Assembly (NCBI RefSeq): GCF_022815605.1
Contig: NZ_JALGRP010000004.1
Coordinates: 62,001 to 126,000, forward strand
DNA length: 64,000 nt
Direction of reading: 5' to 3'
Source: Microbacterium sp. VKM Ac-2923
GTDB lineage: Bacteria; Actinomycetota; Actinomycetes; Actinomycetales; Microbacteriaceae
The position numbers were made by a program, and so were the translations under genes. Numbering within the stretch: the stretch's first letter is position 1; each line of letters opens with the position of its first letter. The notes under the pieces were generated by a model. That model saw nothing but the letters and a program-made list of their open reading frames with translations. It did not search any database and was not told where the DNA came from. Below are positions 1-46,907 of this stretch, in pieces.

Positions 1-505
1 GGTGGCGTGGGCGGGACAGCGGCCGGGGCTCGTTACGGGATCGGTCGCCGAGAACGTCTCGCTAGGAGCGTCCCTCGAACCCGCCACCGTGATCGCGGCT
101 CTGGCCGACGCGGGAGCCTCCGGCATCGACCCCGCCACGGCACTCGGCGCCGGCGGGTCGGGGCTCTCGGGTGGGGAGGCGCAGCGCGTCGCCGTGGCGC
201 GGGCGTTGTACCGGGCCCGGGTGACGGGCGCATCGGTGCTCGTGCTCGACGAGCCCTCAAGTGCCCTGGATGCCGCGACCGAGGCGCACCTGTGGACGAC
301 GCTGCGCGCCGAGGCCGATGCCGGTCGCGGTGTGCTGCTCATCTCGCACCGCCCCTCTGCGCGGGCGATCGCCGACCGCGTCATCGACCTACTCCCCCCG
401 CGTGAGTCGCGTGAGTCGCGTGAGTCGCCAGAATTTGTCGCCTCCGCCGACCTCGAAGCGACAAATCCTGGCGACTCACGCGGGACGGAAGAGGTGCGCG
501 CGTGA
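1..505 (+). CDS. cydD: CydD C-terminal part (5' end outside window), cytochrome bd assembly ABC exporter subunit
   Basis: Only the last ~167 codons are present; the frame is open to the left edge. The fragment is the end of an ABC nucleotide-binding domain: signature LSGGEAQRV near residue 55 of the fragment, Walker B VLVLDEPSSALD near 79-90, and the switch His in LLISHRP near 116. It overlaps the next ABC gene by 4 bases (GTGA), and that gene looks like CydC, so this is most likely CydD of the heterodimeric CydDC exporter that exports reductant (glutathione/cysteine) needed for cytochrome bd assembly. cydAB would lie upstream, outside the window. The last ~35 codons are odd: Arg-Glu-Ser repeats and a 25-base inverted repeat are part of the reading frame, so the C-terminal tail looks like an insertion of repeat DNA. 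Confidence 0.88.
   Translation, partial: VAWAGQRPGLVTGSVAENVSLGASLEPATVIAALADAGASGIDPATALGAGGSGLSGGEAQRVAVARALYRARVTGASVLVLDEPSSALDAATEAHLWTTLRAEADAGRGVLLISHRPSARAIADRVIDLLPPRESRESRESPEFVASADLEATNPGDSRGTEEVRA
402..428. repeat. three tandem 9-base units inside cydD
   Basis: The unit GTGAGTCGC occurs three times head to tail (402-410, 411-419, 420-428) and encodes Arg-Glu-Ser repeats at the CydD tail. The third copy is also the start of the left arm of the inverted repeat that follows. Confidence 0.9.
417..482. repeat. 25-base inverted repeat inside the cydD 3' end
   Basis: Arms 417-441 and 458-482 are reverse complements with a single mismatch, separated by a 16-base loop. The central part of the arm reads GCCAGAATTTGTCGC on the left, answered by GCGACAAATCCTGGC on the right. 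The element lies wholly within the coding frame, about 20 bases before the cydC start, so it would form a strong hairpin in the cydDC mRNA. AT-rich centres in the arms contrast with the surrounding GC-rich DNA. Confidence 0.9.
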
Positions 506-2196
506 ACACTCGCGTCCGCGGCATCCTGAGATCCGCGATGCCCTCGCGTCGGCGATTCGCTCCCGCGGTGCTGGCCGGCTTCGGCACCGCGGCGAGCGCG
601 ATCGCGCTGCTGGCGGCGAGCGCGTGGCTCATCGCCCGGGCGGCCGAGCAGCCGCTGGTGATGTACCTGTCGATGGCCGTGGTCGGGGTGCGGGCGTTCG
701 CGCTATCGCGCGGGGTGTTCCGGTACCTCGAGCGACTCACCGGGCATGACGCGGCCCTGCACCAGCTTGCCGGGGTGCGGGCCGATCTCGTGCGCGAGCT
801 CGTGCCCCTCGCCCCCGACGGGCTGGGGCGTGCCCGTCGCGGCGGGCTGCTCTCCAGCGTCGTCGACGACGTCGACGAGCTGCAGAACCTCCCGTTGCGC
901 GTGGTGTTGCCGCTGTCGGTCGCGGCCCTGACCTCGCTCGCCGCCGTCGTCTTCACGGCCCTCGTCTCGTGGCCGGCCGCCCTCGTGCTGCTCGGGTGCC
1001 TCCTCGTGGCGTTCGCCGTCGCCGTCGCGGTGGGCTGGGCGGCCGGCTCGCGCGCCGAGCGCTCGATCGCACCGCTTCGCGCCACCGTCGCCGACGCCGT
1101 GCACGACCTGCTGACGAATCTCGACGTGCTCACCGCGTACGGGGCCCTGGATGCCGCCACGGCGCGCGTCCGCTCCGCCGATGCCGCGCTGCGCCGGGCG
1201 GTCGTACGCCGCGGTGGCGCGCAGGGGCTCACGGCCGGCGCGGTGTCGGCGCTCGCCGGTGCGGCCTCCCTGGGTGCCCTTCTCGTCGCGGCTCCCCTCG
1301 GCCCGCTGTCGGGACCGGGGCTGGCGGTCGTCGTGCTGCTGCCCATGGCGGTGTTCGAGGTCTTCGGCCCGGTTCCCCTCGCCCTGGCGTCGTGGCGACA
1401 GGTGCGCGCCGCCGCGGAGCGCATCGCCGCCGCCGTTCCCGCCGACATCCCCGCGGGCCTTCCTCGCGCCGAACCGGCGGCGACCGGCGCTGCCCCCGCC
1501 CTGGGCACGGGCCTCGAGTTGCGCGGCATCCGGGCCCACTGGCCGACGCGGAGCGACACCGACGGCGATTCCGGTCGACTGCACGACGTCGACCTCCGTG
1601 TGGGCCCCGGCGAGCGCGTCCTGATCACCGGCCCGAGCGGTGCCGGCAAGACGACCCTCGCCCACGTGCTAGGTCGCTTCCTCGACTACGAGGGGTCGTA
1701 CACGATCGGCGGCGTGGAGGCGCGGGAGCTCTCGGGCGATGATCTGCGCCGCACCGTCGGGATCATCGAGCAGGCGCCGCACCTCTTCGACGAGACCGTG
1801 CGGCAGAACCTACTCTTCGCCCGCGACGCCGCTTTCGACGCCGACCTCTGGTCGGTGCTCGCCCGCGTCGGCCTCGACGGGTGGGCGCGAGGACGCGGGG
1901 GCCTCGACACCCTCATCGGCGATCGTGGCGCGCTCGTCTCGGGCGGGCAGGCGCATCGTCTCGCTCTGGCGCGGGCGTTGCTGCGCGGCTTCCCCGTGCT
2001 CGTTCTCGACGAGCCGACCGCGGGCGTCGATCCCGCGGCATCCGATGCCCTGCTGCGCGATCTGCTCGGCGCGGTGAAGAGCGATCAGGCGGTGGTGCTC
2101 GTGTCGCACATCGAGGTGCCGGAGGGGTTGGTGGATCGCGAGGTGCGGGTGGAGGGCGGGCGGATGGTCTCAAAGCGCATCATCCTTCGCCGCTGA
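502..2196 (+). CDS. cydC: CydC, cytochrome bd assembly ABC exporter subunit
   Basis: 564 residues with about six membrane segments in the first ~300 residues and an ATPase domain at the C-terminus: Walker A GPSGAGKTT near residue 377, signature LVSGGQAHRLALARAL near 477, Walker B VLVLDEPTAGVD near 500 and a switch His in VLVSHIE. It is the partner half of the CydDC exporter in the cytoplasmic membrane. Start is GTG at 502, overlapping the cydD stop by four bases, which implies translational coupling. The signature has SGGQAH rather than the usual SGGQ.QR, typical of a degenerate half in heterodimeric exporters. Confidence 0.9.
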   Translation: MNTRVRGILRSAMPSRRRFAPAVLAGFGTAASAIALLAASAWLIARAAEQPLVMYLSMAVVGVRAFALSRGVFRYLERLTGHDAALHQLAGVRADLVRELVPLAPDGLGRARRGGLLSSVVDDVDELQNLPLRVVLPLSVAALTSLAAVVFTALVSWPAALVLLGCLLVAFAVAVAVGWAAGSRAERSIAPLRATVADAVHDLLTNLDVLTAYGALDAATARVRSADAALRRAVVRRGGAQGLTAGAVSALAGAASLGALLVAAPLGPLSGPGLAVVVLLPMAVFEVFGPVPLALASWRQVRAAAERIAAAVPADIPAGLPRAEPAATGAAPALGTGLELRGIRAHWPTRSDTDGDSGRLHDVDLRVGPGERVLITGPSGAGKTTLAHVLGRFLDYEGSYTIGGVEARELSGDDLRRTVGIIEQAPHLFDETVRQNLLFARDAAFDADLWSVLARVGLDGWARGRGGLDTLIGDRGALVSGGQAHRLALARALLRGFPVLVLDEPTAGVDPAASDALLRDLLGAVKSDQAVVLVSHIEVPEGLVDREVRVEGGRMVSKRIILRR

Positions 2197-46771: not shown

Positions 46772-46907
46772 CCCCAGGTCCCTGAGCCTGTCGAAGGGAC
46801 CGGCACCCACCCGCCTCGCCCCAGGTCCCTGAGCTTGTCGAAGGAACCGGCACCCACCCGCCTCGCCCCAGGTCCCTGAGCTTGTCGAAGGGACCGGCAC
46901 CCACGCC
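46772..46907. repeat. 47-base tandem repeat, 2.9 copies, each with an internal hairpin
   Basis: Units 46772-46818, 46819-46865 and 46866-46907 (partial). Each holds GGTCCCTGAG ... TCGAAGGGACC, so each can fold as a hairpin with GGTCCC/GGGACC arms. Units differ at only a few positions. Noncoding gap between the MarR gene and the oxidoreductase. Confidence 0.95.

Follow-up and report, generated by a model that had tools for sequence, protein, structure and literature searches.

A dispersed REP-like palindrome of Microbacterium gene ends, read in frame in cydD and a helicase gene in some species

Introduction

How does a long palindrome come to be translated as the end of a conserved protein? 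In the stretch of Microbacterium sp. VKM Ac-2923 DNA analysed here (64,000 nucleotides of contig NZ_JALGRP010000004.1, referred to below as the window), an inverted repeat lies inside the 3' end of cydD, just upstream of cydC. The initial annotation had proposed that a palindrome entered the coding region, that this is uncommon and that it could affect translational coupling of the two genes. Short dispersed palindromes are known from other bacteria: the REPs of the GTAG and CGTC super-families are described as lying mostly between convergent or co-directional genes near 3' ends, and sometimes within reading frames, those of helicase and repair genes included (PMC3733652). We have asked what kind of element the cydD palindrome is, how it is distributed, and what it may do at this gene end.

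Results

The palindrome within cydD

The cydD frame, its start cut by the window edge, reads through the palindrome and overlaps cydC. Its 167-residue product has CydD as the best model (TIGR02857, 105.5 bits, under the cut-off of 435, the window containing just a fragment of the gene), in agreement with the identity first given to it. As the match reaches the final model position at residue 130, the tail is an extension outside the family. The features of the junction are:

2-505, forward strand: 3' part of cydD, with a tail beyond the family model; the element is translated as RESPEFVASADLEATNPGDSR
399-428, forward strand: three tandem arm-end copies (period 9), read as RESRESRES; not found at any other of the loci collected
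417-482, no strand: 66-nt extent of the palindrome with the flanking C/G counted; 71% of the 292 ends have C at position -1
418-481, no strand: palindromic repeat of 64 nt, with the GAGTCGCCA core of type I; its arms are 418-441 and 458-481, its spacer 442-457
487-496, forward strand: Shine-Dalgarno-like GGAAGAGGTG, the putative ribosome-binding stretch of cydC, directly 3' of the hairpin; 489-495 unpaired in the fold
502-2196, forward strand: cydC (TIGR02868, 516.9 bits, cut-off 329), whose start shares the GTGA at 502-505 with the stop of cydD

The initial description holds for the palindrome, for the frame that reads through it and for the three 9-base repeats. In the window sequence, the inverted-repeat arms span 417-444 and 455-482 (28 nt each, 93% complementary, with 10 nt between them), and the direct repeats are three exact copies of CGCGTGAGTCGC. 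Comparison of copies of the repeat family sets the core at 24+16+24 nt, with a variable spacer, and separates two things that had been presented together: the long arms are features of the family, whereas the tandem 9-mer, which repeats the arm end, belongs to this locus alone in an exact search of the loci collected.

Under a covariance model, the window copy is the top-scoring place in its own genome (84.3 bits). The RNA fold of 395-486 has a free energy of -53.8 kcal/mol, where shuffled sequences give -30.1 +/- 3.2 (z -7.4), and two half-sites of the repeat were found in the window where 0.02 were expected. Together with the other copies in the genome, these values rule out a chance hairpin.

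Distribution of the repeat

The repeat is dispersed, occurs in some but not all Microbacterium species and mainly adjoins gene 3' ends. The covariance model finds it at at least 24 places in its own genome (45 rows, both strands), a lower bound, 150 of 10103 candidates having been scored; the outcome that the initial annotation had named as its refutation, an arm with no other copies, did not occur. The exact 18-mer of the arm core gives six matches at four places in this genome, and is present in five of 98 genomes searched, namely our own and four relatives of the same genus. Across the genus, the model matches at least 61 of 366 genomes, own included, with copy numbers that are lower bounds at 14 candidates scored per genome. 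A half-site pattern likewise matches 61 of the 366, with four or more matches in 32 and a maximum of 84 per genome; the reversed-pattern control gave at most three in any genome, and single matches may be chance. Genomes such as G225 match the model with no half-site match, and diverged forms therefore exist.

When 23 copies were aligned over 64 columns, the 24-nt arms were conserved and the 16-nt spacer was variable. There are two main arm types, GAGTCGCCA (type I) and GAGGGGTCA (type II), whose proportions differ between genomes; in G210, all seven half-sites are GAGGGGTCA.

An exact 20-mer search of named genomes returned 53 stretches, 51 of them from Microbacterium; the other two, from Henriciella and Cytophagales, hold a single arm only and were rejected as copies outside the genus. 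Searches of plasmid and phage collections yielded nothing at E 0.01, and a plasmid or phage origin was set aside on that ground. A search of Rfam gave no match above a gathering score, with three miRNA models each far below it, and among open-licence papers a literature search gave nothing pointing to a description of this Microbacterium repeat.

Position at gene ends, boundaries and flanks

Among 147 distinct elements, of which 23 near locus ends were left out, 99 of 124 copies are intergenic. These comprise 39 between convergent genes, 53 between tandem genes and seven between divergent genes, so that 92 of the 99 are convergent or tandem. Of the placeable positions, taken from these loci and from the window, 22% are convergent and 22% are divergent; for the copies the shares are 39% and 7%. 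The median distance to the nearest stop codon, at 11 nt (92 intergenic copies), is modestly shorter than the 17 nt of the control. Genes were called for all of these analyses with a home-made gene finder, and the locus set is biased, many loci having been retrieved with a type I pattern and those of the helicase and cydC deliberately, which inflates the proportion of coding copies. In our own genome, 21 of 23 places are intergenic (seven convergent, 12 tandem and two divergent), the weakest of the 24, C5:3764, having been left out.

From position and pairing, we infer a role for the hairpin at gene ends. It may act at the RNA or the DNA level, by 3'-end stabilisation or by an attenuation that needs no T-tract. 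Four or more T in the 9 nt after the hairpin occur at five of 290 ends (control, one of 290), and no T-tract was found at 300-700 of the window. The repeat was accordingly rejected as a canonical intrinsic terminator, and with the T-tract missing a terminator role is doubtful.

The sharp boundaries of the copies, their presence or absence at the same sites (cydD and the helicase gene described below) and the numbers reached in some genomes, up to 84 half-sites, are also what one would expect of a MITE. On that reading the copies would be non-autonomous remnants, their 24-nt arms being terminal inverted repeats cut in trans by a putative transposase. MITEs are small dispersed inverted repeats, some with open frames, as described in part of PMC2229807, and the Microbacterium repeat shares these properties; it differs in that neither a target duplication nor a shared interior was found. 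Direct repeats in the flanks do not exceed shuffles at offsets -3 to +1, and the small excess at offset +2 (129 vs 125.8 +/- 0.8) comes from arm ends compared with themselves. The spacer differs among copies, and no recurring mobile gene was seen when the neighbouring proteins were clustered and the 25 largest clusters of 248 were inspected. We therefore regard a MITE as unlikely. No excision product was found either, and movement of the repeat is accordingly read from its presence and absence at given sites.

The cydD-cydC junction in relatives

From 119 genomes searched, 30 cydD loci were read, 19 of which (own included) are near ones, with CydC at least 86% identical. The type I palindrome is present in four of the 19 (own genome, G006, G058 and G245), and also in G389 and G394. 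Another four near loci have a type II or degenerate form (G235, G368, G024 and G391), three have an unrelated palindromic repeat (CCTGAGCNTGTCGAAGGG or a close variant; G393, G016 and G102), two have some other tail (G007 and G020) and six have no element (G053, G009, G027, G055, G044 and G367). Five of these six cydDs stop within about five residues of the conserved core, and the sixth, that of G367, has a short tail with no palindrome. By eye, no element was seen in the 11 more distant loci. The tail is thus not fixed among near loci; comparison of CydD C-termini had been named as a check, and a tail conserved throughout the genus was not what it found. As the tail is absent in some relatives, insertion is the simplest reading, and the proposal that a palindrome entered the 3' end of cydD is supported by the six near loci that have no element.

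The junctions of G367 and G368 (loci L109 and L106) come near to an empty-site pair: their CydD tails are similarly flanked, and just one of the two contains the palindrome.

The proposal that the hairpin tunes cydD/cydC translational coupling has two features of the window in its favour, namely that about 20 nt separate the end of the hairpin from the first base of cydC and that the Shine-Dalgarno-like stretch is partly unpaired in the window fold. However, the corresponding stretch is paired in the G058 fold, and so its open bases in the window are not a general feature. Furthermore, an ATGA or GTGA stop/start overlap occurs in all 17 of the near loci for which frames were obtained, whether they carry the element or not, and the same element is found at unrelated gene ends. 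An effect on coupling is not borne out by these comparisons, and we consider it very unlikely. Because the overlap is retained in 17 of 17 such loci, the palindrome in cydD is, as far as comparison of sequences can tell, most likely a tolerated passenger. To call such an arrangement uncommon also seems too strong, given that in-frame palindromic repeats are described, in the portions of these papers that deal with them, for REPs (PMC3733652) and for Rickettsia palindromic elements (PMC2229807).

The CCTGAGCNTGTCGAAGGG repeat is itself dispersed and unrelated to the first. Three copies, two exact and one mismatched, lie at 46781-46892 of the window with 47 nt spacing; there are 31 in our own genome and 295 in G102, and the control was zero in 20 of 20 genomes. 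Its occurrence in the same cydD tail in G393, G016 and G102 (L102, L111 and L115) means that this gene end accepts different palindromic repeats.

In-frame copies in a helicase gene

In our own genome, the second coding copy is within a gene of 863 codons that encodes DEAD and DUF3516 domains. There it reads RESPEFVASEASEATILGDSR, compared with RESPEFVASADLEATNPGDSR in CydD. This DExH helicase gene was matched in 33 of 33 relatives, and 30 of these loci were read together with our own. The insert is in frame at 18 of the 31 (10 type I and eight type II), and a short turn takes its place at the other 13. In both cydD and the helicase gene, then, the element is within the reading frame in some species and missing in others.

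Presence and subtype at the helicase site fail to track the tree of the flanking gene: presence changes 10 times (10.2 with shuffled labels) and, among carriers, type changes six times (6.1 shuffled). Strongly supported sister pairs differ at the site (G389/G390, G000/G235 and G016/G020). A tree of the +/-150-nt flanks required 11 three-state changes vs 14.6 shuffled (2.3% of shuffles as low) and eight presence changes vs 10.2 (11.5%), which points weakly to short-tract recombination, and the identity profile round the site in sister pairs has a mild dip only, which is not decisive for recombination. Alleles at the cydD and helicase sites may turn over through new insertion together with short-tract recombination between species.

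With frames read from sequence alone, codon phase is identical in 25 of 25 coding copies, which represent three sites (17 copies in the helicase gene, seven in cydD and one in G225). A 1071-codon frame over a copy in G251 looks spurious, with an other-frame stop codon just before the copy, and was not counted as coding. The G225 copy, around 1501-1563 of locus L076, is a diverged palindrome in a long frame, with its phase as in the other coding copies.

The single phase, and the recurrence of RESP..VAS..EAT..GDSR, could mean that selection acts on the encoded peptide, which would serve CydD and the helicase as a functional tail or loop. That the three sites share a phase is no more than suggestive, as two of the three phases are open in the GCGTGA form; a stop codon in the remaining phase leaves few to choose from. 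Moreover, 13 of 31 helicases and six of 19 near CydDs lack an insert, the residues vary along with arm pairing, and 99 of 124 copies are outside genes despite the helicase and cydD loci having been fetched on purpose. We consider a selected peptide very unlikely. The copies in cydD and the helicase gene would instead be tolerated in-frame passengers, in the manner of Rickettsia palindromic elements.

Paired change of the two arms

Matching between the arms of one copy exceeds that between shuffled arms. Over 147 copies, the middle 5 nt of the arms match at 69% (55 +/- 1.3% shuffled), and the arm-core hexamers are identical in 97 copies (65 +/- 3.5 shuffled). The shuffles used as controls for covariation leave relatedness in. 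In the helicase copies (18, of which 17 are distinct), five measures were taken. There are 48 double-change cells vs 22 +/- 4, a value reached by none of 500 shuffles, and 89.7% of cells are paired vs 82.8% shuffled, with slid controls far lower; two measures do not stand out, namely pairs changed on both sides (12 vs 9.6; 35 of 500 shuffles) and pair types (24 vs 22.2; 109 of 500). Half of the double-change cells (24 of 48) are the type I/type II difference and perhaps reflect few events, and in type II alone (nine copies) the arm match of 71% is inside the shuffled range. A first set of copies, picked by an exact left arm, gave no covariation above shuffles. Individual cases are found as well: loci L030 and L168, compared with L066, have a compensated arm change beside a nearly unchanged spacer, and several intergenic sites with shared neighbours have type I in some species and type II in others. 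In imperfect palindromes, template-switch correction could keep the arms paired without selection.

Alternatively, the arms could be binding sites of a putative dimeric DNA-binding protein, the arm types reflecting a change in its specificity. The arms of one copy do tend to share type, and type make-up varies by genome, as in the seven of seven GAGGGGTCA half-sites of G210. However, the variable middle bases covary too, which pairing explains better, and divergent genes flank seven of the 99 intergenic copies. Protein binding of this kind is, in our judgement, distinctly improbable.

Discussion

The reading that we consider probable is that window 418-481 is a REP-like short interspersed palindromic repeat that has kept its hairpin, is an in-frame passenger at cydD and has a hairpin role at gene ends. 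In the broad sense, a REP is a short palindrome with many similar copies per genome, mainly extragenic and at gene 3' ends, and the Microbacterium repeat has both properties (99 of 124 copies intergenic). It differs from the described REPs in being 64 nt long with 24-nt arms, and no conserved tetranucleotide, a GTAG or CGTC tag included, was found outside the arms. Furthermore, the RAYT/Y1 transposase family (PF01797) was found in just one of 366 genus genomes, not our own, and in five of 14 control genomes; a RAYT-driven REP was rejected on this basis, and the mobilising activity is not of the RAYT family. With RAYT and the GTAG/CGTC tags both missing, the repeat is a RAYT-less REP-like family outside the two super-families. 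CGTC REPs, too, seem to be without a dedicated transposase according to part of PMC3733652. The main text of that paper has no word starting with 'actinobacteri' or 'microbacteri', and the part of a REP survey that lists genomes gives counts for three other Actinomycetota (PMC12306157).

Similarly, Rickettsia palindromic elements are described, in part of PMC2229807, as palindromes with an open frame that lie in frame in conserved protein genes, as is the case here. Those elements are 105-146 bp long, the Microbacterium repeat is 64 nt with three coding sites found, and the two are likened by features, not by sequence.

Mycobacterial interspersed repetitive units are actinobacterial repeats at operon junctions with overlapping stop/start codons. 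They are placed at the stop/start overlap itself, whereas the Microbacterium hairpin lies about 20 nt upstream of it.

A more speculative reading, which we consider unlikely, is that the repeat belongs to a mobile hairpin system, as yet undescribed, in Microbacterium. Such a system would have an enzyme of its own and return to the same few sites (the helicase codon position and the cydD tail among them), and the arm types would record a change in the specificity of that enzyme. If this were true, one arm type would replace the other at orthologous sites.

Gene annotation in Microbacterium contains repeat-coded peptides, which calls for some caution. Finally, this set of species holds many natural pairs that differ in whether a given site has the element, both at a gene end and in a protein interior. 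Such pairs make it possible to test how RAYT-less palindromic repeats spread, why their two arms change in concert, and whether the inserts that they encode are tolerated or used by proteins.
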